From: Elioraea tepida
GTDB lineage: Bacteria > Pseudomonadota > Alphaproteobacteria > Acetobacterales > Acetobacteraceae
Reading direction: 5' to 3'
Length of the DNA: 64,000 bases
Assembly: GCF_019203965.1 (NCBI RefSeq)
Contig: NZ_CP076448.1
Location: forward strand, 310,001-374,000
Shown: positions 38,183-56,286 of the stretch, in pieces
Position numbering within the stretch: position 1 is the stretch's first letter
Layout of the letters: the number at the start of each line of letters is the position of its first letter
Notes under the pieces: model-generated
Seen by the model: the letters and a program-made list of their open reading frames with translations, nothing else
The model's database searches: none
What the model was told of the DNA's origin: nothing
Position numbers and translations under genes: made by a program

Positions 38183-38186
<4 letters not shown>
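36873..38186 (-). CDS. hsdS: Type I restriction specificity subunit HsdS
   Basis: 437 residues with two target-recognition domains and two conserved spacers. Each half ends with a near-identical helix region: [20 protein letters not shown] (about 175-195) and [20 protein letters not shown] (about 385-405), the coiled-coil regions that set the spacing of the two half-sites. TRD1 starts with [17 protein letters not shown] and TRD2 with [16 protein letters not shown]. Its start overlaps hsdM by four bases. The recognition sequence cannot be deduced from sequence alone. Confidence 0.94.
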
Positions 38187-40018
<1,832 letters not shown>

Positions 40019-40108
40019 GCAGCGGGCTCGATGTGGATCCTGGGGGCGCGCTGGCGGACGCAGGGGCGATTCAGCGAGCCGTGACTGTGCCCGGACATCT
40101 CGGGCCTG

Positions 40109-40540
40109 TCATCCGCGATGCGCGGGCGGGCGGAGAGTCGGCGCGTGGTCGCGAGACCCAGCCAGCACGGCCCGCTGCACCACCCACGCCACCGCAAACG
40201 GCTCCATGAGCCTCGGCAGCGTCATCCCCTCCGTCTTTTTCCCCTCGACGATCGCCTCGACGAGATCCGGCGCGAGCAGGGTGAGTTGCAGCAGCCGTCC
40301 GAGGTAGCCGCGGTCGAGCCTCTCCCCGGCCGCCATCTCGCTGATCGAGGCGTAGCGCCCCTCGTCGAGCATGCGCTGGTAGCGGAAGGCGCGGGCGAGC
40401 GCCTTGAGCAGCGCCGGATCGGCGCGCGTCGTGGTGTGCGTTGGCAGCCCGTAGACCACCGGCGTGACGACCGTCCTGCGCCCCGGCCGCCGACGGATCC
40501 TGAGCGGCACGCGGACGGTGATGTGCGTGGGCGCGGTCAC
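40109..40540 (-). CDS. Small HTH protein (ParB/KorB-like) of the serine-recombinase module
   Basis: 143 residues from a GTG at 40540 that overlaps the recombinase stop (GTGA). A basic N-terminus (RVPLRIRRRPGRR) precedes a segment ISEMAAGERLDRGYLGRLL followed by LLAPDLVEAIVEGK. This matches the helix-turn-helix and following helix of ParB/KorB-type DNA-binding domains. It likely controls or assists the recombinase. It regularly follows such recombinases in alphaproteobacteria, but its role is not established. Confidence 0.7.
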   Translation of the reverse strand: MTAPTHITVRVPLRIRRRPGRRTVVTPVVYGLPTHTTTRADPALLKALARAFRYQRMLDEGRYASISEMAAGERLDRGYLGRLLQLTLLAPDLVEAIVEGKKTEGMTLPRLMEPFAVAWVVQRAVLAGSRDHAPTLRPPAHRG

Positions 40541-41871
40541 GCCGCGACTCTCTCTGTACCGACCAGCCCGAGGTCGCGCACCAGGCTGGCGAGCCCCTCG
40601 ACGCGGAGGCGGATCTCGGCGCCATCCAGCCCGACCGTGACGCGCTCGACCAGCGAGCGGACGATGCGCTGCTGCTCTGCGGGGAACAGCTCGTCCCACA
40701 GCGGCTCGAGCCGATCGAGCGCCTCGCGCACGTCAGCTTCTGTCAGGTCCGGATCCTCCGCCTTCGCCGCCACCCACGTCCCGACCACGACCTCCGGCTG
40801 CCGCAGCAGGGCGCGCAGCTGCGTCATCACCGCCGCCTTGATCTCCCCGGCGGAGACGCGCCGGACGATGCCGTCGTCGGCCTCACCCTTCAGCGCCCGC
40901 TGGGCCACGTAGTAGCGGTAGAGCCGCCCGCGCTTCCGGCTGTGCGTCGGCGAGAGCGCGCGTCCGTCGGTGCCGAAGATCAGCCCCTTCAGCAGCGCCG
41001 GGCTCTGCGGCCGATTTGCCTTCGCGCGTGCGCGCGGACTCACCTGCTGGAGCGCGTGCACGCGCTCCCACAGCGCGCGCGATACGATCGCCGCGTGCTC
41101 GCCGGGGTAGACGTGGCCCCGGTGCGCGACCTCGCCGACATAGGTGCGCAGGTTGAGGATCTTGTACACGTCGCCCTTGTCGATCGGGCGCCCTCTCCGA
41201 GTGGTGATCCCCTCCGCGCGACACCGGCGCACGGTCTCAACGCCGGAGCCGGTCTCGGCGAACACCTCGAACACCCGGCGCATCCGCGCGGCCTCGCGCT
41301 GATCGACGATCAGCTTTCGGTTCTCGACCCGATACCCGAGCGGCACCTTGCCGCCCATCCACATCCCCCTGGCCTTCGAGGCGGCGACCTTGTCGCGGAT
41401 GCGCTCGCCGATCACCTCGCGCTCGAACTGGGCGAAGGACAGCAGGATGTTTAGCGTCAGCCGGCCCATGCTGGTGGTCGTGTTGAACGACTGTGTCACT
41501 GAGACGAAGGTGACCTCGTGGGCGTCGAACACCTCGACCAGCTTGGCGAAGTCCATCAGCGAGCGGGAGAGGCGGTCGATCTTGTAGACCACCACCACGT
41601 CGACGAGATCGCGCTCGATATCGGCGAGCAGGCGCCTGAGCGCGGGGCGGTCCAGGCTCCCTCCCGAGAAGCCGCCGTCGTCGTAGCGGTCGGCGACCAG
41701 GGTCCAGCCCTCGGCGCGCTGGGAGGCGACGTACGCCTCGCAGGCTTCGCGCTGGGCGTCGAGGGTGTTGAACTCGCGGTCGAGGCCTTCCTCGGTGCTC
41801 TTTCGGGTGTAGACCGCGCAGCGCTTGCGGATGACGGAAGCCGGCAGGTCGGGGAGCTTGCGCCGGCTCAC
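40537..41871 (-). CDS. Large serine recombinase
   Basis: A 444-residue resolvase/invertase-family recombinase. The catalytic Ser lies in CAVYTRKSTEEGLDREFNTL (about 18-37). Further conserved parts are DGGFSGGSLDRPALRRLL, VYKIDRLSRSLMDFAKL, the recombinase domain (about 175-290; LGYRVENRKLIVDQ) and a zinc-ribbon-like region with RYYVAQRALKG that lacks the usual cysteines. It is coupled on both sides by four-base overlaps: DUF2924 gene before it and ParB-like gene after it. It may be the integrase of the RM-carrying segment or an independent element. Confidence 0.92.
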   Translation of the reverse strand: MSRRKLPDLPASVIRKRCAVYTRKSTEEGLDREFNTLDAQREACEAYVASQRAEGWTLVADRYDDGGFSGGSLDRPALRRLLADIERDLVDVVVVYKIDRLSRSLMDFAKLVEVFDAHEVTFVSVTQSFNTTTSMGRLTLNILLSFAQFEREVIGERIRDKVAASKARGMWMGGKVPLGYRVENRKLIVDQREAARMRRVFEVFAETGSGVETVRRCRAEGITTRRGRPIDKGDVYKILNLRTYVGEVAHRGHVYPGEHAAIVSRALWERVHALQQVSPRARAKANRPQSPALLKGLIFGTDGRALSPTHSRKRGRLYRYYVAQRALKGEADDGIVRRVSAGEIKAAVMTQLRALLRQPEVVVGTWVAAKAEDPDLTEADVREALDRLEPLWDELFPAEQQRIVRSLVERVTVGLDGAEIRLRVEGLASLVRDLGLVGTERVAA

Positions 41872-42374: not shown

Positions 42375-43333
42375 TCAAACCGGACAGCCGGCATGGGTTG
42401 GTGACTGTTGTGAGACGAAATCAGGTGGCGAGCGCATTTGCAAGCCGCTGTGAGGATGGATGGTGTTGTAGTCCTCGAACCATTTGGGCAGGCGCTGGAG
42501 GACGGACATGGCGTCTGGCCTTGGGTTCACGCGGACGTAGTCGCGCTTGAAGGTCTTCACGAAGGCCTCGCAGACGCCGTTGCTCTCGGGGCTGCGGACG
42601 GGCGTGAAGCACGGGATGAGGTTCAGGGCGGTGGCGAAGTCGATGGTTTCGCCGGCGGTGTAAGGGGAGCCGTTATCGGCGAGCCACTGGACAGGTTGCG
42701 GGGCGCGCAGGGCATTGAAGCGCCGTTCGACGCAGTCGAGCATCATGTCACGGATCATCTCGCCGCTGATGCCGCCGGCGGAGGTGCCGGCCCAGGCCAT
42801 GACCTCGCGGTCGTGGGTATCGAGGGCGAAGGGTGAGGCCAGAGCGCCACCGGTCCGAGCGAACGGCCGAACCGGACGACCTCGCCGTTCCAGCAGGGGA
42901 TTTCGAAGCCGTCGGAGGCCCAGCGATGGTTGGAGGCGGGTGCGACGACAGTGCCCTCGTGGGCGCGGATGGCGCGCCGGCCAGTTTGTGGCTGCAGGAG
43001 CAGGGAAGAGAGGAGCATGAGGCGAAAGACGCGCTTGTGGTTGAGTGGTAGCTTGCCCGAGCTGCGCCGCGCGCGGTTGAGCAGCGCCGTGACGCGGCGG
43101 TAGCCGTAGGTTGGGCGTGCGTCGGTGATGGCGCGGATCTCGGCCAGGATGGTTTCGTCTTCGGTGCGGTAGGGGCCGCGCCGGGGCCGGTCTGGCTGAC
43201 TGGTGGCGGGGAAGGCAGGGTGGGAGGCGAGTTGCTCGACCAGGTTGGACCTGGCGACGCCGAGGGTGTCGGCCACGGTCTTCACCGGGAACCTGCCGGT
43301 GGCGGCGAGGGCAAGTGCAAGGCGGGTTTTTTT
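42375..43333 (-). pseudogene. IS3-family transposase OrfB, frameshifted
   Basis: After the slippery site the frame encodes FPVKTVADTLGVARSNLVEQ, then PTYGYRRVTALLNRAR and the first catalytic Asp region NHRWASDGFEIPCWNGEVVRF. Near 42845 the reading must change frame again to continue as SPFALDTHDREVMAWAG, then WLADNGSPYTAGE (second Asp) and RSPESNGVCEAFVKTF (Glu), completing the DDE triad. The second frame change is not at a known programmed site, so the transposase is probably inactive. The stop lies inside the left terminal repeat. Confidence 0.75.
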
Positions 43334-43671
43334 GGGCGTGCCTGCGCGAGGGCCTCGCGCAGGATCTCGGTTTCCATGGTCTTGCGGCCGAGCAGGCGCT
43401 CGAGTTCGCGGACGCGGTTTTCGAGTTCCCGCACGCGGCTGATGGGGACGACCTCTTCGTCGGCCCTGATTGCCTCCTGGCCACCCTCTGTCATGCGCCG
43501 CCTCCACTGGAACAGCAGGCTGGGCGAGACACCGTGCAGCCGGGCGACGGCGGAGACCGTCATGCCGGGCTGCATGGTCTGCTCGACCAGCCGGACCTTT
43601 TCCTGGGCAGTGTAGCGTCTCCGGCGCTCGCGGCCGCTGATGATTTCGACGCGTTCGATGGGCTTCGACAT
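43282..43671 (-). CDS. IS3-family transposase OrfA with programmed frameshift site
   Basis: 129 residues with a helix-turn-helix head (RRRYTAQEKVRLVEQTM, AVARLHGVSPSLLFQWRRR) and a leucine-zipper-like helix (RELENRVRELERLLGRKTME). A run of seven A on the coding strand (complement of 43327-43333) near its end is the usual slippery heptamer for -1 frameshifting into OrfB. The start ATG at 43671 touches a palindrome that could restrict translation. Confidence 0.85.
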   Translation of the reverse strand: MSKPIERVEIISGRERRRRYTAQEKVRLVEQTMQPGMTVSAVARLHGVSPSLLFQWRRRMTEGGQEAIRADEEVVPISRVRELENRVRELERLLGRKTMETEILREALAQARPKKPALHLPSPPPAGSR

Positions 43672-43698: not shown

Positions 43699-43957
43699 CC
43701 CTCTGGGCTACGCCGAGTGTCCGGTCGAATTGGGGGCCAATCCAGGGTGGAACGACTCGTCATGCGTCCTCCGTGTCTCGAGGGTTCGCATGACGGCGCT
43801 GGTGGGGAGTCGAGTGTAGCGAACTCTCTCCGCACTCCCGAGCTTCCGGGTCGATCGCGGTGAGCTGGCCCTTTTTTCCTTGGACATCCATTTGTCGAAG
43901 GACGCCCGAGGATGGCTGCTTCCGAGATGCCGAGACGAGAGACCCCGGAGCGGGGTG

Positions 43958-44293
43958 ATGGGGCTGAGCGGCGCGCCGGCGGCGGGGCCGCTCGCTCCGG
44001 GGCAGCGCTGGAGCGTGGCGCGCAAGCGCGCGGTGGTGCTGCGCCTGATCGCGGGCGAGCCGGTGGAGCTTGTGTCGCGCGAGATCGGCGTGCCGGTGTT
44101 CAAGCTCGAGCGCTGGCGCGAGCGAGCCGAGGCCGCGCTGGAAGGGGCGCTCAAGGAGCGCGAGGCCGACGGCGAGGGCCCCGAGCTGGCCGCCGCGCTG
44201 CGTCGGATCGGCGAGCTCAGCATGGAGGTCGACCTCCTGCGCGCGAAGATGGGCCAGTCCCCCGGCCCTTTGGCCCGGAAGCGGTGGCGGTGA
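43958..44293 (+). CDS. Transposase OrfA of IS element B
   Basis: 111 residues from the ATG at 43958, preceded by a GGAG ribosome site; a TTG at 43880 would extend it. The HTH head reads RWSVARKRAVVLRLIAGEPV then VSREIGVPVFKLERWRERAE, followed by a coiled-coil tail. Its TGA overlaps the ATG of orfB (ATGA-type junction at 44293). Confidence 0.7.
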   Translation: MGLSGAPAAGPLAPGQRWSVARKRAVVLRLIAGEPVELVSREIGVPVFKLERWRERAEAALEGALKEREADGEGPELAAALRRIGELSMEVDLLRAKMGQSPGPLARKRWR

Positions 44294-45201
44294 TGGCCGG
44301 GTCGGTCTCTCCTGCCACCGGCCGCGCCTACGGCGTGGCGCGGGTGTGCGCGGTCTGGGGCGTGCCGCGATCATCGTTCTACCTGGCCCGGCAGGCGGCG
44401 CAGGGCTTGGCCCCCGCGCGGCCGACCGGCCGCCGCGGGCCGAAGCCCGCGGTTCCGGACACCGCCCTGCGGGCGGCGATCCGGGCCGACCTCGCCCGCT
44501 CGCCCTGGTCGGGCGAGGGCCATCGCAAGGTCTGGGCGCGGCTGCGCGTCCGGGATGGGCTTGCGCATCGCGCGCAAGCGGGTGCTGCGGCTGATGCGCG
44601 AGAACGCCCTCCTGTCGCCACACCGCGCCCGCCCACGCCCCGCCGACGACCATGACCGGAAGATCATCACCGACGCGCCGAACGTGATGTGGGCCATCGA
44701 CGGCACGCAGGTCGCCACGGTGCGCAACAGCAAGGTCTGGCTCTTCGCCACGGTGGAACACTGGAACGCGGAGGCGCTCGGCTGGCACGTCAGCAAGCGC
44801 GGCACGCGCCGCGAGGCGCTGCAGGCCATGGGCATGGCCGTGCGCCAGCAGTTCGGCCATCTCGGCCGCGACGCCGCCCGCGGCGTCCAGCTGCGCCATG
44901 ATCACGGCAGCTGCTTCATGGCCGAGGACTTCCAGAACCAGACACGAGCCTAGGGCATGACCCCGAGCTTTGCCTTCGTAGGCAGCCCCAGACCAACGGC
45001 GTCGTCGAGCGGTTCTTCCGCACACTCAAGGAGCAGGTCGTCCACGGCCGCGTCTTCGAGACCCTCGAAGACCTCCGCGACGCCGTCCGAGCCTTCATCG
45101 CCCGCTACAACGCCCAATGGCTGATCGAGAAAAACGGCCACCTCAGCCCACACGCACGACGCCGCCAACACGAGCTTGCGGCCATGCCCATGGCCGCGTA
45201 A
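44293..45201 (+). pseudogene. Transposase OrfB of IS element B, multiply disrupted
   Basis: An IS3 OrfB/rve integrase in pieces. The first frame encodes SPATGRAYGVARVCAVWGVP to WSGEGHRKVWARLRV. Near 44556 a frameshift leads to LRIARKRVLRLMRENALLSP, VMWAIDGTQVATV (first Asp) and LRHDHGSCFMAEDFQNQ (second Asp). A TAG at 44951-44953 follows, then in the same frame TPSFAFVG, and near 44988 a second shift gives QTNGVVERFFRTLKEQ with the Glu. The DDE triad is conserved but the gene is dead. Confidence 0.75.
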
Positions 45202-45405: not shown

Positions 45406-46068
45406 TTACTCAAAAAAAATGAATTCGTAGTCCCCCGTGTAGCCGGCTTTGGAGAAGATCCACTCCCACTCGTCCGGAGTATGGAAGGCGCGGCAAGTGA
45501 GCTGCCAGTACATGAGGTTTACCTTTTCGCGCTCGGTACGATACGCCTCGACGACCACAAACTTTTCCGCCTTCGAGACCCGCTCGATCTCGGCAAGGGC
45601 AGCAAAAAGATCGTAGATGTATAGGTTGTGCAACGTATTAATCGAGACAACCAAGTCGAAATGGTTGTCTGGCCAGTCGAGCTTTGCTGCCGTGCCGTGG
45701 CGGATCTTCCCCTTAACGCTCTCCATCGCATGCTCGATCGCGTAGGAGGAGATGTCGATCCCCTCTACTTCCAGGCCGGGCACGCTCTCGGCGAGGTCGT
45801 GCATCAGGAAGCCCTTGCCGGCACCGACATCGAGCACGCGCATGCCCGGCCTGAGCCCATAGGTGTCACGCATCGCGTCCGCAACCTTGCGCCAGCGCCC
45901 GTCATATCGGTAGCCGCCATATCCCGTATCTCGGCTGCCGTCCCAGTAATCGTAGCCGTATTGGACGGCGAGTTCCGCTGCCTTCGCCTTGTCGCACCGC
46001 GTGACGCGTGCGAGGTAATCGCGCTTGGTCGATTTGTGGATCAGGCTGACGAATTCGCGGTATGCCAT
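45406..46068 (-). CDS. Class I SAM-dependent methyltransferase, last gene of the sugar operon
   Basis: 220 residues from the ATG at 46068, with a GGAG ribosome site eight bases upstream. Motif I is MRVLDVGAGKGFLMHDLA, post-I acid lies in VEGIDISSYAI, and a later FDLVVSINTLHNLYIYDL is motif II. The C-terminus WEWIFSKAGYTGDYEFIFFE is unlike ubiquinone-type methyltransferases. An N-terminal region rich in Tyr, Trp and Arg (YDYWDGSRDTGYGGYRYDG) may bind the sugar acceptor. It is 14 bases behind the phosphotransferase, so it probably methylates the product of this pathway. Confidence 0.8.
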   Translation of the reverse strand: MAYREFVSLIHKSTKRDYLARVTRCDKAKAAELAVQYGYDYWDGSRDTGYGGYRYDGRWRKVADAMRDTYGLRPGMRVLDVGAGKGFLMHDLAESVPGLEVEGIDISSYAIEHAMESVKGKIRHGTAAKLDWPDNHFDLVVSINTLHNLYIYDLFAALAEIERVSKAEKFVVVEAYRTEREKVNLMYWQLTCRAFHTPDEWEWIFSKAGYTGDYEFIFFE

Positions 46069-46082
46069 CCTGGACACTCCTT

Positions 46083-47087
46083 TCAGGTGGTTTGAAGGCG
46101 GTCGAGCGCGGCGGCCGCCTTGGCAAGCTGGGCGGCACAGCGCGACGCGCGGTCTGCTCCTTCTGCGAAATGGCGTCGGGCTGCGTCGGCCACAATGAAC
46201 TCATTCAACATGATGCACACCCACTTGATGCCATAAGCCGGCAAGAGGGCATCGCAGCGGGCGCTATGTGTAATGGTACCAAGCCCAAGGGCTCCCAGAA
46301 CCGCGTCTCTGAAGGCAGGATAAAGCGAAGGTGGGGCAGGGAGGTCGGGCTGGCAGAAGAAGTCGCAGATCAATTTCGCCGGATCGTCGCGACCGGCGTA
46401 TTCGAAGTCGAGGAAAGTCAGGCGTCCGTCCGCTTCGAGCGCATTGTGGAAGCCGAAATCCGATGGCGAGATGCACCATGGCAGCGGCGTCGAGTCGGGG
46501 GTGAGGTTGCGCACAAAACGCCGCCAGGCCGGCACGAGGCGGCTGCGGACCAGTGCTGCGGCGGTCTCGAAATAGGGGGCAGAGGGATCAAGCCGTGCCT
46601 CCAGTCGTGCGACGCGCCGGGCAATCGCCTCGAGGTGGGCTGCAAGCGAGAAGCAGGCCTCTGAGGCAGGTGGCAGCGCCTCGGCTGCGCTCCGTGCCAC
46701 CCTGGTGTTCAGCGCAGCGATGAACCGCGCTGCCGCCTCCACATGTCGCGGTTCGACGGCGGCAATCCGCGCGCCCGGGACGAAGGCGTAGAGCGCCGTG
46801 TGGCTCGCTGGATCGGCCGCAAGCGGCGCGGGCACCGTTCGCAGGCCGCATGTGTGCCAAGCGTAGTGTAGGAATGCCCACTCCGCTCCGAGCCGATCGC
46901 GCGGATCGCGCGGATCGTGGTGGTAGCACTTGATGACAAGGGGAGGGCCGTCGCGCTCGATCCGAAACACCCGATTGTTGCGCCCCCCTGGAAGACGCGT
47001 CAGCGCATGTGGCGAATCCGTTAGCCCGGCTTTGCGCATCAACCGCGACGCGGCCTCGATCGGCGTGACCTCGGCGATCACGCTCAC
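46083..47087 (-). CDS. Aminoglycoside/choline-kinase-like phosphotransferase
   Basis: 334 residues from a GTG at 47087 overlapping the HAD stop (GTGA). The kinase N-lobe has GGRNNRVFRIERDGPPLVIK with the ATP-binding Lys; the glycine loop is short. The catalytic loop normally HxDxxxxN reads WCISPSDFGFHNALE here, with Asp and Asn present but His replaced by Ser, followed by FLDFEYAGRDDPAKL (DxD metal motif region). This resembles choline kinase and APH-like enzymes that phosphorylate small hydroxyl compounds. Phosphorylation of a sugar or a substituent precursor is inferred from context. Confidence 0.78.
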   Translation of the reverse strand: MSVIAEVTPIEAASRLMRKAGLTDSPHALTRLPGGRNNRVFRIERDGPPLVIKCYHHDPRDPRDRLGAEWAFLHYAWHTCGLRTVPAPLAADPASHTALYAFVPGARIAAVEPRHVEAAARFIAALNTRVARSAAEALPPASEACFSLAAHLEAIARRVARLEARLDPSAPYFETAAALVRSRLVPAWRRFVRNLTPDSTPLPWCISPSDFGFHNALEADGRLTFLDFEYAGRDDPAKLICDFFCQPDLPAPPSLYPAFRDAVLGALGLGTITHSARCDALLPAYGIKWVCIMLNEFIVADAARRHFAEGADRASRCAAQLAKAAAALDRLQTT

Positions 47088-47713
47088 GCCGCGGTGCGGC
47101 CGAACAGCGCGGCCGTGATGCTGTCCCAGGCGCCGTAACGTTCGAACCTTCGTCCCTGCCAAGTGCCTTCGGGATAGTTCGCCTCAGGATCGAACAGGAT
47201 CGCGCGGCAGCAAGCGGGAAACGCGGCCTCTGCAAGCACCTCCGGCAGGTCGTCGACGAAGGCGTCGAGCCCGAGAGCGGCGATGCGCGCGAGCTTAGCG
47301 GCGATCGTCACCTCGAAAAGGACGCGCTCGGGGGGAATGCCACCATGCGCGGGATCGGTAAGACGGTGTGCGGCCAGGAACGCGCGCGCAGCCTCGTGCA
47401 GGTCGTAAGGGGGCCCGCGATAGGGCACCCGCGTCCGGTGGCTGACGATGAACACGTCGTGACCGGCGTGTTGAGCGGCGGCGATGAAGGTGGCCACACC
47501 CGGATAGGGTCGGACCAAATCCATCCGCGCGCCATAGACATAGCCCTGGAGCTCGGTCCAGTCGTTCTCTCGTCCGATCGCGCGCAGGTGGTTGCGCACG
47601 CTCGTTTTGTCCCTCGGCAGATCGGTTGGAATAAGGCCCCGCTCCACCGCTGCCGCATGAAACACGCCTTCATAGCATGCGATGGTATTGTCGAAGTCGA
47701 TGCCGATTCGCAT
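47084..47713 (-). CDS. HAD-superfamily phosphatase-like protein
   Basis: 209 residues starting MRIGIDFDNTIACYEGVFHA, the DxDNT nucleophile motif. Motif II is the Ser in HDVFIVSHRTRVP. A cap region lies between (LQGYVYGARMDLVRPYPG). Motif IV is FVDDLPEVLAEAA. It sits four bases after the dehydrogenase gene and overlaps the phosphotransferase. In a heptose-type pathway a HAD enzyme usually removes a phosphate from a sugar bisphosphate, but the actual substrate is not clear here. Confidence 0.8.
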   Translation of the reverse strand: MRIGIDFDNTIACYEGVFHAAAVERGLIPTDLPRDKTSVRNHLRAIGRENDWTELQGYVYGARMDLVRPYPGVATFIAAAQHAGHDVFIVSHRTRVPYRGPPYDLHEAARAFLAAHRLTDPAHGGIPPERVLFEVTIAAKLARIAALGLDAFVDDLPEVLAEAAFPACCRAILFDPEANYPEGTWQGRRFERYGAWDSITAALFGRTAA

Positions 47714-47717
47714 CGGT

Positions 47718-48758
47718 CTAGGCGAGCCGCATGTCGATCAGCGGCCGGCCAACCCTTCCCTCCGCGAGGTCGTCGAGTGCTTGGTTCGTCTCATCGAGGC
47801 GGTAGGGTTTGGAAAGCAGTCGTCGCACATCGAAGCGCGCCGCACCGAGGAGACGCGCGAAGCGCGGATGGTCACGGTCAGGGACCACGTCGCCGCCCCA
47901 CGTGCCGAGCAGGCTCTTGCCCTGGTTGAACAGGCCGGGATCGAGCGTAAGCGTCGCGCCATGGCGCGCATTGCCAATCACCACGGCTCGGCCGCCCTGA
48001 GGACGCACAGCCTTCAGCGCCTGTTCCATCACCGCGGGCTGGCCGCTCGCCTCGACCGCTGCGTCCACGCCGTGCGGCACGAGGGCGCGGATGACCGCGA
48101 CCGGATCGTCGACGCCGGGGTCGATCGTGTGTGTCGCACCGTACGACTCGGCAAGCGCGCGCCGATGCGGGTTGGGATCGACACCGATCACCGGCACCGC
48201 ACCGGCGAGTGCCGCCGCCATGCAGGCGTTCAGGCCGATGCCGCCGGTGCCGAACACCGCGACGCTCTCGCCAGGCAGCACGCGCAGAACGTTCACCACA
48301 CTGCCGATGCCGGTGGGCGCGGCGCAGCCGAGCAGCACGGCGACGTCCATCGGAAGGCCGGCGGGAAGCAGCGTGAGGCGGTTCTCGCTGACCACGGCGT
48401 GGCGTTGGAATGTGGTGACGCCGCCTGCATTCACCCGGCGCCCGTTCCAGTCGTAGATCGTACCGCCGGCCTCGATCCCGCTGCCGCGGATCCAGGACAG
48501 CACGACTTGGTCCCCCGGCTTGACCTTGGAAACTCCCGCACCCGTCTCGAGCACCGTGCCGCTTCCTTCGTGGCCGAGACAGTGCGGCACCCATTTATCG
48601 TGGCCCTTGAGGCCGCGCTGTTCCATCACCTGCGTGCCGCAGGCCCCGGAATAGGCGATCTCCACCAGCACCTGGCCGGGCTTGAGCGCCGGGATCGCGA
48701 TTTCCGCCATCTCCAGCGGCCGGCCCGTCTGGACCAGCAGCATCGCTTCCGTCTTCAT
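47718..48758 (-). CDS. Zinc-type medium-chain alcohol dehydrogenase family protein
   Basis: 346 residues with the N-terminal MDR fold: ALKPGQVLVEIAYSGACGTQ (catalytic-zinc Cys), then HCLGHEGSGTVLETGAGV with the GHE motif, and GDQVVLSW. The four-cysteine structural-zinc lobe is absent. The Rossmann motif is VAVFGTGGIGLNACMAAALA and the cofactor acidic residue lies in VIGVDPNPHRRALA. Four-base overlap with the transketolase gene before it. Probably reduces a carbonyl created by the transketolase or the dehydratases. Confidence 0.85.
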   Translation of the reverse strand: MKTEAMLLVQTGRPLEMAEIAIPALKPGQVLVEIAYSGACGTQVMEQRGLKGHDKWVPHCLGHEGSGTVLETGAGVSKVKPGDQVVLSWIRGSGIEAGGTIYDWNGRRVNAGGVTTFQRHAVVSENRLTLLPAGLPMDVAVLLGCAAPTGIGSVVNVLRVLPGESVAVFGTGGIGLNACMAAALAGAVPVIGVDPNPHRRALAESYGATHTIDPGVDDPVAVIRALVPHGVDAAVEASGQPAVMEQALKAVRPQGGRAVVIGNARHGATLTLDPGLFNQGKSLLGTWGGDVVPDRDHPRFARLLGAARFDVRRLLSKPYRLDETNQALDDLAEGRVGRPLIDMRLA

Positions 48759-49699
48759 CCCGCGGCCTTCCCGTGCAGCGCCACCTCCACGCGCTCGGCG
48801 ATCTGATGGCCGGCGAGGCCGAGCTGCTCGCGCGCGAAGTCCTGCTCGCCCGACTGGCGGAAGAAGGCGTCGCCGGTATGGAAGCGGAGAAACCCGCCGC
48901 GCGGCACGGGCGTGCCGGAGTCCGCCATCCACTCCGCGACGGCCGCACCCATCCCGCCGATCGGCGAATGCTCCTCTGCCGTCGCCACCACGCGGCAGGT
49001 CCGGAACGCATCGGCGAGGGCCAGGGTATCCAGCGGCTTCACCGTGTGCATCGAGAGCACGCGCACGGAATGGCCATGCCTCGCGAGTTCGTCCGCGGCG
49101 TGCAGGACCTCCGGAAGGATGTTGCCTGTAGAGATCAGACAGACTTCGTCGCCCTCGCGCATCGTGATGGCGCGGCCGAAGGCGAATGCCGCGGGGATGC
49201 CGGGATGGATGATCGGCTCGCCCTTCTTGCCCATTCGGATGTAGACGGGACGGTCCTGCTGCAGCGCCGCCCGAAGTGCGGCGCGCACTTCCCAGGCATC
49301 GCCTGGGCAACACACCACCATGCCCGGGAGGGACCGCAGGAAGGCGATATCCTCGCAGGCATGATGCGTTGGCCCAAGGGCAGCATAGGCCAGACCGGCG
49401 CCTACTGCGACGATGATGACCGGTGCCTCGTGATAGCAGACATCGACGCGGATCTGCTCCAGGCAACGCGTGGTGACAAAGGGCGTGATCGTATAGGCGA
49501 CCGGCCGCAGACCGCTGAGGGCCATTCCAGCCGCGACGCCCATCATGTTCTGCTCCGCCACGCCGCAATTGAAGAACCGCGACGGATGCCTCGCGCGGAA
49601 GGTGTCGAACAGGCGATTGCCGATATCGCCCGACAGCATCACGAGCCGCGGGTCCGTGTCCGCAAGCCTGGTCAGCTCATCCGCGAATTCATTCCTCAT
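48755..49699 (-). CDS. Transketolase, C-terminal (pyrimidine-binding plus C-domain) subunit
   Basis: 314 residues. The pyrimidine-binding half starts FADELTRLADTDPRLVMLSGD and shows FFNCGVAEQNMMGVAAGMAL with the invariant Glu that activates thiamine diphosphate. The C-terminal domain follows (CLISTGNILPEVLHAADEL to VVATAEEHSPIGGMGAAVAE). It is made with the separate N-terminal subunit upstream (four-base overlap); the two form the split transketolase found in many secondary sugar pathways. The gene would be redundant with a housekeeping transketolase. Confidence 0.9.
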   Translation of the reverse strand: MRNEFADELTRLADTDPRLVMLSGDIGNRLFDTFRARHPSRFFNCGVAEQNMMGVAAGMALSGLRPVAYTITPFVTTRCLEQIRVDVCYHEAPVIIVAVGAGLAYAALGPTHHACEDIAFLRSLPGMVVCCPGDAWEVRAALRAALQQDRPVYIRMGKKGEPIIHPGIPAAFAFGRAITMREGDEVCLISTGNILPEVLHAADELARHGHSVRVLSMHTVKPLDTLALADAFRTCRVVATAEEHSPIGGMGAAVAEWMADSGTPVPRGGFLRFHTGDAFFRQSGEQDFAREQLGLAGHQIAERVEVALHGKAAG

Positions 49700-50544
49700 G
49701 CGAGGCCGAGCTCTTCATGCGCCTTACGGACCTCGTCGGCCGTCGGGGCGCGATAGTGCCAGTTGTTGTCGTCCTCCATGAAGGACACGCCCTTGCCCTT
49801 CACGGTGTGCGCGATCAGGGCGACGGGTCGGCCCTCGCCGCATGCGGGAATCGCGGCGAGGCTCTGCGCGAGTGCGCCGACGTCATGGCCATCGATCTCG
49901 TGCGCGTTCCAGCCGAAGGCGGCCCACTTGTCCCGCAACGGCGCGAGCGCGAGTGTCTCGTTCGAGCGCGCGGTCGCCTGCCACTTGTTGTAGTCGACCA
50001 CCACGCAGAGATTGGCGAGGCGCTGCGCCGCGGCGAACATCGCCGCCTCCCAGACAGAGCCTTCGTTGCACTCGCCGTCCGACAGCACTGCGAAGACGCG
50101 GTAGGCTTGGGAGTTGATGCGCGCGGCGAGCGCCATCCCGGCGCCCATCGGCAAGCCATGGCCGAGCGAGCCGGTCGCCGCCTCGACGCCGGGCAGGCCG
50201 TGAGCGGGTGGGTGCTCGGCGAGCCTGCCGCCGTTCCGGCAGTAGGTGTCGAGCTCCGCCGGGTCGAAGAAGCCGCGGAACGCGAGGGCGGCATAGAGCG
50301 CGGTCGCGGCATGGCCCTTTGAGAGAATGAAGCGGTCGCGCAGCGGATCGTCGGGCCGCTTGGGATCGATCCTGAGCGCGTACCAATAGGCCGCCGCGAG
50401 AATGTCGCAGCAGGAGAGGGCGGAGGCGAGGTGCGCGGCCTGGGCGGCATGGGCCATCTCGATCACGCGCCCGCGCAGCTTCGCGGCGATCGTGCGGAGC
50501 GCAGCCTCGTCCGGGGCGCGGCTAGAGGTCGTGAGAACCGTCAC
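49696..50544 (-). CDS. Transketolase, N-terminal (diphosphate-binding) subunit
   Basis: 282 residues from a GTG at 50544 overlapping the upstream stop (GTGA). The thiamine diphosphate signature is SDGECNEGSVWEAAMFAAA then VVVDYNKWQA (GDG...N metal motif with Ser at the first Gly). Conserved histidine-containing segments are LSKGHAATALYAALAF and ATGSLGHGLPMGAGMAL, and the tail shows HTVKGKGVSFMEDDNNWHYR. Together with 48755-49699 it should transfer two-carbon ketol units between sugar phosphates. Confidence 0.9.
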   Translation of the reverse strand: MTVLTTSSRAPDEAALRTIAAKLRGRVIEMAHAAQAAHLASALSCCDILAAAYWYALRIDPKRPDDPLRDRFILSKGHAATALYAALAFRGFFDPAELDTYCRNGGRLAEHPPAHGLPGVEAATGSLGHGLPMGAGMALAARINSQAYRVFAVLSDGECNEGSVWEAAMFAAAQRLANLCVVVDYNKWQATARSNETLALAPLRDKWAAFGWNAHEIDGHDVGALAQSLAAIPACGEGRPVALIAHTVKGKGVSFMEDDNNWHYRAPTADEVRKAHEELGLA

Positions 50545-51527
50545 GGCTTGTGCTCGTAATCCCAGCTCTTCATAGAGAGAAGATGGTCGCGGAACCGTTC
50601 CGCCCAGGCAATGCACTCGGCGATCCCATCCTCGAGGCAGACCATGTCGCGCCAGCCGAGTTCGGTCCTGAGCTTCGTCGAGTCCAGCATGTAGGCTTGG
50701 TCCTTGCCGGGCCGTTCCGGCACGATCGCCACGCAGTCGTCGAAATCCTTGCCGAGCCGCTCCAGGATCATCGCCACGAGTTCGCGGATCGACAGCGTCC
50801 GCAGGGTCGAGATGTGGTAAGTATGCCCTACCTGCCCGGCGAGGGCGATCCGCAGCGTCGCCTCGCTGACGTCGCGCATGTGGATGAAGGAACGGATCGA
50901 CCGGCCGCCGCCGTGCAGTTCAAGCTTGCGCCCCGCGAGCGCCGAGAGGATCGTGCGCGGAATGATGCGATAGGTCTGTTGGCCCGGCCCGTACACGTTC
51001 GCCGCCCGGGTCGACACCGCGGGAAAACCGTACTGCGCCACCACGACGCGGAGCTGCATATCGCCCGCGGCGCGCGAGACGGCATAGGGCGTCGTCGGGT
51101 TGAACGGCGCATCCTCGCGCACCCATCCCTCGGTGCTGCCATACACCTCGGGCGTGGTGACATGGACGTAGCGCTCGAGCCAATCGAGCCGTCGCAGGCG
51201 CTCGAACAGCAGGGTCGTGGCGACCACGTTTGTCATCATCCAGTGCTCTGGGTGACGCCACGACTCCCCTACCATACTCTGCGCAGCGAAGTTCACCACA
51301 TGGCTCGGCCGCTCGGCGCGCAGGAGCGCATCGAGCGCGTCAAGATCGCGGTTTATGTCGAGTTGCACGAAGCGCACGCGGTTGCCGCGCCAGCGATAGG
51401 GCACGAAGGCCTCGTGCGGCTCGGGCGAGCGCGAGGCCGCGATCACTTCGTACCCGGCCGAGACGAGGTGGTCACAGAAGGTCGCGCCCGAGAAGGAGTT
51501 CGAGCCGAGAACGAGGAAACGCGTCAT
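50541..51527 (-). CDS. NAD-dependent sugar epimerase/dehydratase (Lys of YxxxK is Arg)
   Basis: 328 residues of the extended SDR family, GDP-mannose 4,6-dehydratase-like. The nucleotide loop is FLVLGSNSFSGATFCDHLVS, atypical for GxxGxxG. The Thr of VHVTTPEVYG and the Tyr of PYAVSRAAGDMQLRV are in place, but the catalytic YxxxK reads YAVSR with Arg (codon CGC). Further landmarks are TRAANVYGPGQQTYRIIPR and SIRSFIHMRDVSEA. Downstream overlap with the transketolase gene is four bases. It probably acts on the activated sugar; activity needs testing because of the Arg. Confidence 0.85.
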   Translation of the reverse strand: MTRFLVLGSNSFSGATFCDHLVSAGYEVIAASRSPEPHEAFVPYRWRGNRVRFVQLDINRDLDALDALLRAERPSHVVNFAAQSMVGESWRHPEHWMMTNVVATTLLFERLRRLDWLERYVHVTTPEVYGSTEGWVREDAPFNPTTPYAVSRAAGDMQLRVVVAQYGFPAVSTRAANVYGPGQQTYRIIPRTILSALAGRKLELHGGGRSIRSFIHMRDVSEATLRIALAGQVGHTYHISTLRTLSIRELVAMILERLGKDFDDCVAIVPERPGKDQAYMLDSTKLRTELGWRDMVCLEDGIAECIAWAERFRDHLLSMKSWDYEHKP

Positions 51528-52159
51528 TCCGACGCTGCCTGCACCGAGTCGCGCTGGGTGTGCAACCACTGCATGATCATGTGCCCGATCGCCATTTGCA
51601 GATCCTCGGCCACTTGCATGTCGTCGATCGCGACATGGATCGGCACGTCTGCCAGCGCCTTGGCCTTGCCGCCCGAGTAGCCGAGCACCGCGAACGAGGT
51701 CATGCCGATGCGTCTCGCTTCCTCGAGCGCGCGCAGGATGTTGGGCGAGTTGCCGCTGCCGGAGAAGGCGATCAGCACATCGCCCGGCCGCGCCATCACC
51801 GCGAGCTGGATCGCGTAGATCCACTCGTAGCCTTCGTCATTGGCGAGGCAGGTGACGACGGACGGGTTGGCGGAAAGCCCATGCGCGCGAATGCCCGAAC
51901 CGGGCCGCTTCGAGAGCGCGTAGATGTAGTCATTGGCGAGATGCATCGCATTGCCAGCGCTGCCGCCGTTGCCGATCAGGAACACCTGCCGTCCAGTCGT
52001 CCAGCAGCTCTTCAGCGCTTGCGCGAGGGTTTCCACCGCATCCAGGTCGAGCAGCTTCAAGGCACCCGCCAGCCGATCGACATAGGCCGCGAACATCGTC
52101 TTCGGGTCGGCCGCGCTGCTGACAATCCCACTCACGACAAAACCTTCGCTTTCATCCAT
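51524..52159 (-). CDS. SIS-domain sugar isomerase, phosphoheptose isomerase (GmhA) like
   Basis: 211 residues. FLIGNGGSAGNAMHLANDY and IAFSGSGNSPNILRALEEA are the sugar-phosphate-binding loops of GmhA, which turns sedoheptulose-7-phosphate into D-glycero-D-manno-heptose-7-phosphate. The Glu that follows the GNGGSA loop in GmhA aligns with an Asp here (HLANDY), and a C-terminal His is kept (AIGHMIMQWLH). So it is a GmhA relative whose exact substrate may differ. Its start overlaps the epimerase gene by 28 bases and its end the SDR gene by four. Confidence 0.85.
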   Translation of the reverse strand: MDESEGFVVSGIVSSAADPKTMFAAYVDRLAGALKLLDLDAVETLAQALKSCWTTGRQVFLIGNGGSAGNAMHLANDYIYALSKRPGSGIRAHGLSANPSVVTCLANDEGYEWIYAIQLAVMARPGDVLIAFSGSGNSPNILRALEEARRIGMTSFAVLGYSGGKAKALADVPIHVAIDDMQVAEDLQMAIGHMIMQWLHTQRDSVQAASE

Positions 52160-53070
52160 TTCAGATTGTACCAGCGATCCTCATCTTGGAGAGCGCCCTG
52201 GCGGTACATCCCGACGAGCTCCTTGATCGCATCCTCGACCGTGTGCATCGGTCGAAACCCTGTGGCGAGCAGCTTGTCGGAGTTGACGCGGTAGGAGCGT
52301 GGATCGTTCGAGGGCGAGACCACCACCTCTGACGGCACGTGCTGCTGGACCATCCGCGCGATCTCGAGGATCGAGAGATTCTCGAACCCGGCATTGTAGA
52401 TCCCCGCGTGCTGGGGATTGTCGAGGAGAAACAGGTAGAGGTCAGTGATGTCCTGAATATGGATGTTGGGCCGGGTCTGGTTGCCGCCGAACACGGTGAT
52501 GCGCCCCTTGGTGAGCGCCTGCATGGTCAGCATGTTGACCGACACGTCGAGGCGCATGCGCGGCGAGAAGCCGCACACGGTCGCGGGGCGGACGATCTGC
52601 ACCACCATGTCGTCCGCGTAAGAGAGCAGGATGCGCTCGGCGCACATCTTTGTTTTATTGTATTCCGAGATCGGCACGAGCTCGAGATCCTCGGTTACCT
52701 GCTCCTCCTCCTTCACGCCATAGACGCTGCCGGAGGACGCATAGAGGAAACGCCTGATTCCGCGCCGCGCGCAGGCGTCCGCAAGCTGCATCGTGGCAAG
52801 GCAGGACACCTCCCATGTCAGCTTCGGGTCGAGATCGCCACAGGGGTCGTTCGCGATCGAGGCGAGGTGGATCACCGCATCCACGCCGTCGAGATCGATT
52901 TGCCTGGGGTCGCGCACGTCGCCCTTGACGACGGTCAACGCCGGATGCGGCCGGAGGCAGTTGCCGAACCACTGGATGTCGAACGCCACCACTTCGTGGG
53001 CCTTCGCCAGCAGCTTGGGCACCAGCACGCTGCCCTTGTAGCCGCAAGCGCCTGTCACCAAGACCCTCAT
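52132..53070 (-). CDS. NAD-dependent sugar epimerase/dehydratase
   Basis: 312 residues of the extended SDR family. MRVLVTGACGYKGSVLVPKL is the nucleotide loop (GxxGYKG), VIHLASIANDP follows, the Ser region is YASSGSVYGV, and YNKTKMCAE gives an intact YxxxK. The late GGNQTRPNIHIQDITDLYLF and RSYRVNSDKLLATGF are typical of UDP-glucose-epimerase-like or NDP-heptose-epimerase-like enzymes. It begins 18 bases after the nucleotidyltransferase. The substrate is likely the nucleotide sugar made by the preceding enzymes. Confidence 0.87.
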   Translation of the reverse strand: MRVLVTGACGYKGSVLVPKLLAKAHEVVAFDIQWFGNCLRPHPALTVVKGDVRDPRQIDLDGVDAVIHLASIANDPCGDLDPKLTWEVSCLATMQLADACARRGIRRFLYASSGSVYGVKEEEQVTEDLELVPISEYNKTKMCAERILLSYADDMVVQIVRPATVCGFSPRMRLDVSVNMLTMQALTKGRITVFGGNQTRPNIHIQDITDLYLFLLDNPQHAGIYNAGFENLSILEIARMVQQHVPSEVVVSPSNDPRSYRVNSDKLLATGFRPMHTVEDAIKELVGMYRQGALQDEDRWYNLKWMKAKVLS

Positions 53071-53088
53071 CCGCGATCTGTCCTCGTG

Positions 53089-53829
53089 TCAGTGGATCCT
53101 GTCCGCATCACGCCGCGCGCCCTCATTCGGGTGCCACTCGGCCTCCGCCAGGGCGAGCGCCTCGGGCGAGCCGATATCACGATGGTAGCCCTGCGTCTCC
53201 ACGGCCAGGATGCGGCCGGTAAAGCGCGGGATCACCTCGGTCGAGAGATCGACCACGGACCTGCCGAGCGATGCGGCCAAGTCGATCACCTCTGGTTCGA
53301 ACAGATAGACGGCGGCATTGGCGAGGTCACCCGGCGGGTTCTCCACCTTCTCGTGGAACGCCTGAACGATGCCGCGGGCGTCGATCTCTAGGATGCCGCA
53401 GCTCTGCGGCGAATCGGTGCGGAAGGCGAGCATGGTGATCGCGCAGCCGGCGGGGCGCTCGCGATGCGCTGCGATCAACCGGCTGACGTCGAGATCGGTC
53501 AGGTTGTCCGCATGCGCGACCAGCACCGTCCTGTTGCCTATCCAGGCGCGGTTCGCGAGCAGTGTGCCGCCTGTGCCGAGCAGTTCCGGCTCGTGCGCAA
53601 GATCGACGCGCGCCGCCCAGGGCGACGCAGTGACGAAGCGTTCCACCTGGCCGGGAAGCCAGTGCGTGTTGACGAGCGCCCGCTCGATCGCGCCCGACCG
53701 GAACAAGAGGTCGAACCAGATGCCGAGCAGCGGCCGCCCGTGTACCGGGACGAGGCATTTCGGCACGCGTTCGGTCAGCGGCCGAAGCCGCGTGCCGAGC
53801 CCCGCCGCCAGCAGCACCGCCCGAATCAC
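53089..53829 (-). CDS. Sugar-1-phosphate nucleotidyltransferase
   Basis: 246 residues from a GTG at 53829 overlapping the fusion-gene stop (GTGA). MIRAVLLAAGLGTRLRPLTE with VPKCLVPVHGRPL is the nucleotide-binding loop of pyrophosphorylases (GxGTRLxPLT...PK). VAHADNLTDLDVSRL and AFHEKVENPPGDLANAAVYL are the metal and sugar-binding parts. The short size resembles HddC, the heptose-1-phosphate guanylyltransferase, rather than glucose-1-phosphate thymidylyltransferase. Which nucleotide is used cannot be told from sequence. Confidence 0.88.
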   Translation of the reverse strand: MIRAVLLAAGLGTRLRPLTERVPKCLVPVHGRPLLGIWFDLLFRSGAIERALVNTHWLPGQVERFVTASPWAARVDLAHEPELLGTGGTLLANRAWIGNRTVLVAHADNLTDLDVSRLIAAHRERPAGCAITMLAFRTDSPQSCGILEIDARGIVQAFHEKVENPPGDLANAAVYLFEPEVIDLAASLGRSVVDLSTEVIPRFTGRILAVETQGYHRDIGSPEALALAEAEWHPNEGARRDADRIH

Positions 53830-55334
53830 GCCGTGTCCGCGTCGATCTCGGCCTCGATGTCGGCAGCCGTGACCGGCAGGTTGCCGACGCGGCCGACCTG
53901 GCAGGCGGCGGCGAGCGCGCCGATATAGGAGGCGCGCCAGATATCCGCGCCCGCAGCGAGCGCCAGGGCGGTCGCGGTGAACAGGCTGTCGCCGGCGCCG
54001 GCGGGGTCTTTGGGGGCGGTATTGAACGCGGGCAGCCGATCGTCCATCAGCGCGCCGTCTGATCCGTTTGGCGCATGCACCAGCATCCCATCGGCGCCGA
54101 GCGTCACCACCACGTTGCGGGCCCCGCACGCTGCGCGCAGCCGGTTGGCCAGCACCGTTAGCCCGCTCTCGAAGTCACGCAGCGCGAGCCGTGCCTCGCG
54201 CTCGGTCGGGGTGATCAGCGTCATGCCTCGGAAGCGCGAGATGTCCGAGAGCTGCGAGGAGGCTTGGCTGTCGGCAGCCATCATGATGCCGCGCTCGGAC
54301 GCCAGCTCCACCACGGCATCGACCAGCGGTTGCGGCAAGCACCCGTAGTTGAAGTCCGAGAACAGCAGCAGGTCAGTGTGTGGCAGGGCCTGCTCGATCC
54401 GGTCAAGCACCTGCGACCTGATGTCTGCGTCGATCGCGTGTTGACGCAGGTGGTTCACGCGCAGGAGCGTCTTGCCCGCGGCACGGTAGCGCTGCTTGTG
54501 TGTGGTCGGGCGGGTCTCGTCAACCAGAAACTCAGTCGCCACGCCATGCCGGGCGAGAGCTGAGCGTGCGAAGCCGGCCTGATCATCCCGTCCCGCCACC
54601 GTGATGTAACGCACCTCGGCGCCAAGCCCGCGTGCGTGTGCCGCCACGATCGCTGCGCCGCCAACGAAGGTCTTGTGGTCGATGGGCGTGACGACGATCG
54701 TCGGATCCTCCTGTGACATGCCGAGCGCGTCGCAGTCGATGTAGGTATCAACGATGAGGTCGCCGACGACCAGCACGCGGATCCCGCGCATGTGGGGAAG
54801 CACGGCCTTCAGACCCTCGATTGTGAAGCCGTGGCGGCGTGGGAAATCCTTCGGCTTGATCAACGTCCAGAACGGCCCGCTTGTATACTCGCGCTGGAGG
54901 AGGTCGAGCGAGGCGAAGCGCACCTCGCCCGAACTGAACAGCAGCCGACCGCCGTAGGCCTCAACTGCGGCGAGCTCCGGATTGTGGCGCTCGGCATGCT
55001 CGCGCCCTTTCACGACGATGTCGGGCTTGAGCTCGGCGATGAAGCACTCCGGCGGCTCCCTCAGCGCGAAGGCGTAATCGACGATGCCGAGCGACTGGAT
55101 GCCTTCAAGACGCAGCGCCAGCGGCACCGCGACTCCGGGTGTGGAGTCCGGGTTGACGCCGACAACCAGGAACTCGCCGGCCTCAGCCGCGAATTTCAGA
55201 AGCCGGAGATGGCCAGGGTGAACGACATTGAAATTGCCAGACACGAACGCCACGCGTCTGCCCGCCGCCAACCGCCGAATCTCGGCAGCCACGCATTCTG
55301 ATCGGGCCACCGGATCGGCGCTCGATGCCCTCAT
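53826..55334 (-). CDS. Cytidylyltransferase-like/PfkB kinase fusion, HldE-like with inverted domain order
   Basis: 502 residues. The N-terminal domain (about 25-150) is a nucleotidyltransferase with FVSGNFNVVHPGHLRLLKF, where HPGH is the HxGH motif, and VVKGREHAERHNPELAAVEA. The C-terminal domain (about 180-495) is a PfkB kinase with VVGDLIVDTYIDCDALGMSQ, GGAAIVAAHARGLGAEV, TPTEREARLAL and the catalytic DPAGAGDSLFTATALAL. HldE has the same two activities, heptose-7-phosphate 1-kinase and heptose-1-phosphate adenylyltransferase, but in the opposite order. It is the first gene of the leftward operon. Confidence 0.85.
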   Translation of the reverse strand: MRASSADPVARSECVAAEIRRLAAGRRVAFVSGNFNVVHPGHLRLLKFAAEAGEFLVVGVNPDSTPGVAVPLALRLEGIQSLGIVDYAFALREPPECFIAELKPDIVVKGREHAERHNPELAAVEAYGGRLLFSSGEVRFASLDLLQREYTSGPFWTLIKPKDFPRRHGFTIEGLKAVLPHMRGIRVLVVGDLIVDTYIDCDALGMSQEDPTIVVTPIDHKTFVGGAAIVAAHARGLGAEVRYITVAGRDDQAGFARSALARHGVATEFLVDETRPTTHKQRYRAAGKTLLRVNHLRQHAIDADIRSQVLDRIEQALPHTDLLLFSDFNYGCLPQPLVDAVVELASERGIMMAADSQASSQLSDISRFRGMTLITPTEREARLALRDFESGLTVLANRLRAACGARNVVVTLGADGMLVHAPNGSDGALMDDRLPAFNTAPKDPAGAGDSLFTATALALAAGADIWRASYIGALAAACQVGRVGNLPVTAADIEAEIDADTA

Positions 55335-55517
55335 CAGGGCCCCCTTTTCCGCGAACGCGCCTTCTGAACAACCCGCCCGTGAGCGTACTCTCTCCCAGAT
55401 GTTTACGGCCTATAGGCGGGATCGACTTCCGGCGCAACACGATCGCGCAGCCGCTCTGGCGGGTGGGACCGGCCGCTCCTGCCCAGCAGGTGGCGCCGAC
55501 GCAGCACCGCCTGCTGT

Positions 55518-55545
55518 TTGTCTCACCTCGGGCCTCTGCTAAAAT
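55518..55545 (+). promoter_or_regulatory. Predicted sigma-70-like promoter of the rightward operon
   Basis: TTGTCT at 55518-55523 and TAAAAT at 55540-55545 are separated by 16 bases, in the 268-base space between the two divergent operons. Transcription would start near 55552, leaving an untranslated leader before the methyltransferase ATG at 55603. This favours that start over the ATG at 55552. No equally clear promoter is seen for the leftward operon. Confidence 0.4.
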
Positions 55546-55602
55546 AATGGGATGCAGTGTTTTGTTGCGGGATCGAGAGAAATCGAGGATCGAGCGCGGT
55601 TC

Positions 55603-56286
55603 ATGGACAAGCCGGAAACCAAAGAAAAGCAATACGATTTACTCTTCGAGGTTAAGGAGAAGCACGGGATCGCGCGCTTCGGGCTGATGGCGAATGAGTC
55701 CTGGAACCAGGATCCGCGGCGTACCGTCTTCACCCTCGCGCGGTATAAATTTGTGTCGAAAATGCTGGCGGGGCGCAAGAAGGTGCTGGAGATCGGCTGC
55801 GCCGACGCCTTCGGCACGCGCATCGTGCAGCAGAGCGTCGGCCACGTAACGGCGGTGGATTTCGACCCCGTCTTTGTCGCCGACGCGCTGGAGCGGATGA
55901 ATCCGCACTGGCCGTTCGAGGTCTTCGTGCATGACCTCCTTGCCGGTCCCGTGCCCGGCCGCTACGATGCCCTGTATGCGCTCGACGTGCTGGAGCACAT
56001 CGCTCCTGATCGCGAAGATCTATTCCTCCGCAACGCCGTTGCCGCGCTCGAGCCGACGGGGGTCGCGATCTTCGGCATGCCGTCGCTCGAGTCCCAGGCG
56101 TATGCCTCCCCGCAAAGCAAGGCCGGCCACGTCAACTGCAAGACCGGCGAGGCGCTGAAGGAGACGCTGGAAAAGTATTTCCACACCGTCTTCGTCTTCT
56201 CGATGAATGACGAGGTCGTTCACACTGGCTACTTCCGGATGGCGCATTACCTCATTGGCGTGTGCAGCCATCTCAGATCGGCGTGA
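55603..56286 (+). CDS. Class I SAM-dependent methyltransferase, first gene of the rightward operon
   Basis: 227 residues from the ATG at 55603; an ATG at 55552 would add 17. MDKPETKEKQYDLLFEVKEK, then FGLMANESW, precedes motif I KVLEIGCADAFGTRIVQQS and VTAVDFDPVFV. ALYALDVLEHIAPDREDLFL is the motif II region. This family is frequent in lipopolysaccharide and S-layer sugar clusters. It overlaps the RmlD-like gene by four bases (GTGA). Confidence 0.82.
   Translation: MDKPETKEKQYDLLFEVKEKHGIARFGLMANESWNQDPRRTVFTLARYKFVSKMLAGRKKVLEIGCADAFGTRIVQQSVGHVTAVDFDPVFVADALERMNPHWPFEVFVHDLLAGPVPGRYDALYALDVLEHIAPDREDLFLRNAVAALEPTGVAIFGMPSLESQAYASPQSKAGHVNCKTGEALKETLEKYFHTVFVFSMNDEVVHTGYFRMAHYLIGVCSHLRSA

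Follow-up and report, generated by a model that had tools for sequence, protein, structure and literature searches.

We analysed a 64,000-nucleotide stretch of the Elioraea tepida genome (the window), in which an operon of eleven genes is almost certainly the homologue of the eleven-gene cluster implicated in bradyrhizose O-antigen synthesis in Bradyrhizobium. The end product is probably the rare sugar bradyrhizose or a close relative, in the form of a nucleotide sugar. With less assurance, we lean towards the fuller reading that a horizontally acquired homologue of that cluster follows the five steps proposed below, with bradyrhizose or a closely similar higher sugar, inositol-fused and branched at C4, as the product.

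Inspection of the open reading frames (ORFs) showed that a minus-strand run of eleven intact ORFs fills positions 55334-45406, in the transcription order HldE-NTP-SDR1-SIS-SDR2-TKN-TKC-ADH-HAD-APH-MT (Table 1). This agrees with an earlier sequence-only reading, which had described eleven leftward genes at 45406-55334 as an operon with four-base overlaps at most junctions. Such overlaps are possible at seven of the ten junctions (HldE/NTP, SDR1/SIS, SIS/SDR2, SDR2/TKN, TKN/TKC, TKC/ADH and HAD/APH); the SDR1/SIS overlap is formed by the GTG at 52135 over TGA, and the SDR2/TKN overlap by the GTG at 50544 over TGA. The longest ORF of TKN begins at 50616. A sigma-70 scan of the minus strand of 55335..55551 gave no convincing match, and consensus promoter and terminator matches at the operon did not rise above chance level.

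Table 1. Genes of the Elioraea tepida operon and the adjoining intergenic stretch, in window positions. Percentages are amino-acid identities to Bradyrhizobium sp. STM 3809.
Feature	Position	Strand	Evidence
HldE-like fusion, reverse domain order	53826..55334	-	PF01467 31-113, PF00294 186-484; 59%
NTP, sugar-1-phosphate nucleotidyltransferase	53089..53829	-	PF00483 7e-29; 66%
SDR1, relative of Cj1427 (GDP-heptose C4-dehydrogenase)	52132..53070	-	PDB 6vo6; 80%
SIS-domain GmhA-like isomerase	51524..52159	-	PF13580; PDB 5ltz E 2.6e-27; alternative GTG start 52135
SDR2, homologue of Bradyrhizobium gdh	50541..51527	-	PF16363/PF01370; gdh primer sites
TKN, split transketolase, thiamine diphosphate (ThDP)-binding chain	49696..50544	-	PF00456; 73%
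TKC, split transketolase, pyrimidine-binding/C-terminal chain, altered substrate site (YAALGPTHH)	48755..49699	-	PF02779/PF02780
ADH, Zn-type alcohol dehydrogenase	47718..48758	-	PF08240/PF00107; 75%
HAD-fold phosphatase	47084..47713	-	motifs DFDNT, SH-T, K140, DDLPE; predicted fold
APH/choline-kinase-fold small-molecule kinase	46083..47087	-	motifs SPSDFGFHN, DFEY; predicted fold
MT, S-adenosylmethionine-dependent methyltransferase, final operon gene	45406..46077	-	PF13847/PF08241; 73%
Intergenic stretch before divergent + strand methyltransferase	55335..55551	.	probable operon promoter region

Homology to the Bradyrhizobium eleven-gene cluster

Genome contigs were scanned with the HAD family, and 80 loci were fetched among the matches listed, of 441 confirmed candidates. 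The list was led by Alphaproteobacteria, several Bradyrhizobium among them, and most of the 80 loci carried the HAD/APH/TKN/TKC core. All eleven genes, in the order of the window, were found in STM 3809 (L089), STM 3843, SRS-191, SSBR45G (L092), B. aeschynomenes (L091) and others. The proteins match those of photosynthetic Bradyrhizobium sp. STM 3809 one-to-one, with amino-acid identities from 51% (APH) up to 80% (SDR1). The sequence-only reading had proposed a database search for conserved gene order as a check. A chance association of the genes was rejected on the eleven-gene synteny.

A "cluster of eleven genes" has been implicated in the bradyrhizose O-antigen of photosynthetic Bradyrhizobium (Busset et al., PMC4743980). 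It contains gdh, and its synteny is kept in six photosynthetic strains, including STM3809. Insertions in gdh abolished the bradyrhizose O-antigen, and the authors assigned the operon to the synthesis of bradyrhizose, for which the genes were previously unknown (PMC4743980). The published gdh primer pair falls inside the SDR2 homologue, uniquely in three genomes, with the sites 381 bp apart, and this placement identifies gdh as the SDR2 homologue. It is the synteny together with the primer sites that argues for homology between the window operon and the published cluster. All genes and their order are shared; the window operon differs in being flanked by insertion sequence (IS) elements and not by rfaL, and in that its product is predicted from the genes. 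Since the gdh primers land in the SDR2 homologue, the likely end product can be named. The earlier statement that it could not be read from sequence was too pessimistic, as synteny with the published cluster indicates bradyrhizose or a close relative. No study on the enzymes of bradyrhizose synthesis turned up in literature searches.

An altered split transketolase

The nearest solved structure for both TKN and TKC is the split transketolase of Carboxydothermus hydrogenoformans (TKN: PDB 6yak N chain, E 1e-63; TKC: PDB 6yaj C chain, E 2e-55), in which the ordinary substrate motif THAG...GEDG is intact, whereas the operon TKC has lost it. Residues were counted in an alignment of 72 cassettes, consisting of the window and 71 further split pairs. 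The catalytic ThDP residues are retained: the Glu of GVAEQN in all 72 and, in TKN, the His of WHYR in all 72 and the His of SKGH in 70, the remaining two being gapped. The substrate site is not that of an ordinary transketolase. The motif THDSIGxGEDG of the ordinary enzymes reads VGAGLAYAALG in TKC, where the substrate His is replaced by Gly (72/72) and the substrate Asp by Leu (71/72), and a GxYxxLG signature recurs in the TKC of related cassettes. In transketolase, the lost His and Asp contact the substrate phosphate and the acceptor hydroxyls. An ordinary single-chain transketolase with both substrate residues kept (motif THDSIGLGEDGPTH) is encoded elsewhere in the genome (L163). The pentose phosphate pathway can therefore run without the operon copy, and the single-chain enzyme ruled out the operon transketolase as the only one of the cell.

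With the HldE-like protein, 38 loci were found, 19 with the transketolase pair and 12 with E1-alpha. The two never occurred together (0/31 loci carrying either; Fisher p 4e-5, a value that is only indicative because the loci are related, which inflates significance). E1-alpha stood in place of transketolase, often with E1-beta, in L042-L044, L046, L047, L049, L058, L062, L063, L067, L068 and L076. Other sister clusters (group A) contained a dedicated transaldolase and a GmhB-like phosphatase.

The sequence-only reading had the operon transketolase supply sedoheptulose-7-phosphate. Developed fully, this explanation has it make sedoheptulose-7-phosphate (or an octulose phosphate), from which GmhA/HldE-type enzymes would produce a linear nucleoside diphosphate (NDP)-heptose or NDP-octose, decorated by SDR enzymes and a methyltransferase. 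Relatives of GmhA, HldE and Cj1427 are indeed present in the operon, and the sister clusters with transaldolase and GmhB-like phosphatase indicate that a dedicated ketose-phosphate supply exists. We nevertheless regard it as improbable: the ordinary transketolase is elsewhere in the genome, the substrate residues of TKC are changed family-wide, the related clusters exchange the pair for an E1-type enzyme that is incapable of making sedoheptulose-7-phosphate, and the syntenic published cluster is implicated in a bicyclic, not a linear, sugar. What survives of the self-contained heptose route is a sugar-activation operon with heptose-type enzymes and an unusual higher-carbon sugar; the feeding by transketolase does not.

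Addition of hydroxyacetyl to keto sugars by split-gene transketolases has been proposed for miharamycin and amipurimycin (PMC12247030). This 2025 review lists only 13 candidates for ketone-adding transketolases, all from Streptomycetes, whereas the operon type is found in Gram-negative surface-polysaccharide clusters. Keto sugars are known acceptors of acyl units from the E1-type and YerE-type ThDP enzymes (PMC12247030), and the addition of acetyl by E1-type enzymes has been demonstrated. In the case of YerE-type decarboxylases and the E1-type alpha-KADH2 (yersiniose, aldgamycin, kibdelomycin), a ThDP enzyme likewise leads to a tertiary alcohol at C3/C4 of a keto sugar, but the donors are acetyl or acyl units from 2-oxo acids and not a ketol.

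Predicted enzymes and a proposed route to bradyrhizose

Ten operon proteins, all except the methyltransferase, were scanned against NCBIfam, and none reached an equivalog cut-off. The HldE-like protein has a cytidylyltransferase-like N half with an HPGH motif and a PfkB kinase C half with a GAGD motif, so that the nucleotidyltransferase precedes the kinase, and it scored 191 vs 345 bits for TIGR02198 and 60 vs 181 bits for TIGR02199. The families named in the sequence-only reading are right at the superfamily level; the reversed domain order of the HldE-like protein and its scores, well short of the HldE/RfaE cut-offs, are corrections to it. Scores this far under the equivalog cut-offs also led us to reject a simple ADP- or GDP-heptose pathway. 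The SIS protein is likewise no typical GmhA (TIGR00441, 109 bits vs a cut-off of 209), and in the alignment the position of the GmhA active-site His is Gln in 39 of 43 homologues. SIS (G000:C1:361566-362006) is the only GmhA-family match of the genome, and a canonical HldE is present at 1491365-1492726.

The nearest PDB relative of SDR1 is Cj1427 (6vo6; E 3e-37 across 290 residues). The homology is whole-length, and Tyr137 and Lys141 of the Tyr-x3-Lys motif are kept in all 58 sequences. SDR2 keeps the SDR fold and the Tyr. It is unlikely to be a true dTDP-glucose 4,6-dehydratase, the annotated type, because TDE reads TPE in 68/70 sequences, with the dehydratase Asp changed to Pro, and Arg stands in place of the Lys of Tyr-x3-Lys in 52/70; we regard it as a candidate for some unusual reaction. 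Pfam gave no match for HAD or APH. The AlphaFold models (pLDDT 96.9 for HAD and 94.7 for APH) predict a phosphatase fold and a small-molecule kinase fold, respectively. In Foldseek searches of the PDB, the best match of HAD was a deoxyribonucleotidase-like protein, among HAD phosphatases, and APH matched choline, homoserine and methylthioribose kinases, i.e., the choline/aminoglycoside type. The catalytic motifs of both are invariant across the alignments.

Bradyrhizose has ten carbons in a bicyclic skeleton, and OH-4, OH-5 and OH-9 are each a possible site of ring closure for C1 (PMC9912281). C4 therefore carries a hydroxyl as well as the C4-C9 bond, i.e., it is a tertiary alcohol. A route of five steps, ranked in descending confidence, can be proposed. 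In step 1, the SIS and HldE-like enzymes, the HAD phosphatase and the NTP transferase would give an NDP-heptose. In step 2, its C4 would be oxidised by SDR1, which we infer from the likeness to Cj1427, the enzyme that oxidises GDP-heptose to GDP-4-keto-heptose (PMC10680097). In step 3, the split transketolase would move a two-carbon hydroxyacetyl unit onto the C4 ketone, leaving C4 as a tertiary alcohol linked to C9 in a product with C4(OH)-C9(=O)-C8. In step 4, ADH and/or SDR2 would prepare the oxidation of C7, and an aldol-type closure of C8 on C7 would form the six-membered carbocycle on C4-C5. In step 5, the methyltransferase would provide the tenth carbon (7+2+1 = 10). The steps beyond C4 oxidation are inferred: the evidence for the addition by transketolase to the C4 ketone is balanced or leans slightly in its favour, the C8-C7 closure is possible but rather doubtful, and it is, with the origin of C10, the weakest part of the route. 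The isomerase, kinase, nucleotidyltransferase and C4-dehydrogenase logic is that of the GDP-heptose pathway of Campylobacter jejuni (Cj1424-Cj1427; PMC10680097), with SDR1 resembling Cj1427. In C. jejuni, the 4-ketone is epimerised and reduced, and PMC10680097 mentions no transketolase; the HldE-like fusion in reverse order is a feature of the operon.

Two other uses of these enzymes were considered. The chemistry could be the same up to the C4 branch and lead to a different C4-branched product, such as an uncyclised nonose or decose. The homologues are 51-80% identical and not near-identical, and the cassette spans several phyla, which can hardly all be expected to make one and the same product. 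On the other side, the window keeps all eleven genes and their order, and the transketolase tree, in which it groups with Phreatobacter, Rhizobiales and Bradyrhizobium, sets it beside the Bradyrhizobium group. We judge this outcome unlikely, though deserving of attention. The other explanation is that the transketolase supplies C8-C9 in another manner, e.g., by lengthening a phosphorylated aldose that is activated afterwards, and that SDR2 forms the carbocycle in an inositol-synthase-like reaction. An SDR fold that keeps the Tyr and lacks the dehydratase Asp is compatible with an unusual reaction, and HAD and APH folds act on phosphorylated small molecules. This scheme offers no explanation for the tertiary alcohol at C4, for a C4 oxidase that resembles Cj1427 or for the exchange with E1-type enzymes, and we give it very little weight.

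Several points speak against bradyrhizose made by the five steps. The gdh mutants were possibly polar, as their own authors state (PMC4743980), and the product in Elioraea tepida is a prediction from the genes. Step 1 is uncertain, in its isomerisation, since the canonical GmhA His is missing from most SIS members, and SDR2 lacks the dehydratase Asp, so that its part in step 4 is tentative. No transketolase has yet been shown in vitro to transfer its unit to a ketone (PMC12247030). Finally, Gemmataceae (L144, L145, L132, L135, L124) carry an ADH-HAD-APH-SDR2 block whose surroundings contain neither transketolase nor heptose genes; the Gemmataceae genomes checked (L144, L145, L132) encode a split transketolase with this altered motif at another place.

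Distribution, neighbourhood and meaning

Of 385 genomes sampled from the class (Alphaproteobacteria), 23 carried the HAD marker, as against only 1 of 150 in the family of the window (Acetobacteraceae), and it was not found in the two sampled congeners. The G+C content of the operon is 66.1%, vs 69.7% for window positions 1-42000, and transposase and recombinase genes border it. Horizontal acquisition of the operon is probable because of this rarity in the family, the lower G+C and the bordering genes. Among the HAD matches listed, related cassettes occurred in Verrucomicrobia, Planctomycetes, Chlamydiae and other Proteobacteria; some titles of metagenome-assembled genomes (e.g., Bordetella, Akkermansia) are probably unreliable names. 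A plasmid collection searched with the HldE-like protein gave one distant match, Solidesulfovibrio pDCAR1, which was set aside; its linked TKC has the ordinary transketolase motif.

By sequence inspection, an IS3-like transposase ORF pair (42375-43671, minus strand) lies beside a transposase-like stretch (43880-44953, plus strand), directly downstream of the operon. Further left are a tRNA-Ser followed by an integrase-like ORF (27328-29433) and type I restriction-like genes (32617-41871; HsdS Pfam match at 36873-38186) with a serine recombinase (40537-41871). This tRNA-to-recombinase stretch looks like a genomic island boundary on the left of the operon. At the other end, divergent glycosyltransferase and methyltransferase genes adjoin the operon. 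The divergent methyltransferase (55552-56286, plus strand) is similar to a neighbour of the Verrucomicrobia cassette L104 (12369-13040) and may belong to the wider pathway. Past the right end of the window, sequence inspection revealed an ABC permease and ATPase of the polysaccharide-export type (G000:C1:374114-375529; L172). The nearby glycosyltransferase, methyltransferase and ABC-export genes suggest that the product is used in a surface polysaccharide, in which they would place it. In a 2.6 Mb alphaproteobacterium (G416), the cassette (L081 and L045) sits among genes for flagellin and TPR proteins, a setting that points to glycosylation of flagellin by a related sugar.

The sole published genetic study that we found (PMC4743980) proposes one operon from a mutant phenotype, and the comparison of relatives made here adds a concrete, testable route, in which the C4 tertiary alcohol would be explained by the addition of a ThDP enzyme to a ketone. 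Beyond the 13 Streptomycete candidates (PMC12247030), 71 further split pairs are present in sugar clusters of other bacteria, and candidate stretches with the HAD marker number more than 400. These split transketolases share a sequence signature, and candidates are therefore easy to find and assay. Tentatively, and with the balance somewhat against it, we suggest that this family adds hydroxyacetyl to an NDP-heptose at its C4 ketone and that an aldol-type closure then forms the inositol ring, this being the route to bradyrhizose, and that inositol-fused sugars are widespread in Proteobacteria, Verrucomicrobia, Planctomycetes and Chlamydiae. The prediction is that sugars of the bradyrhizose type, for which a lack of immunogenicity to plants has been described, occur far outside the legume symbionts. 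If true, the biosynthetic route of bradyrhizose would have been found, and inositol-fused sugars would not be confined to photosynthetic Bradyrhizobium.

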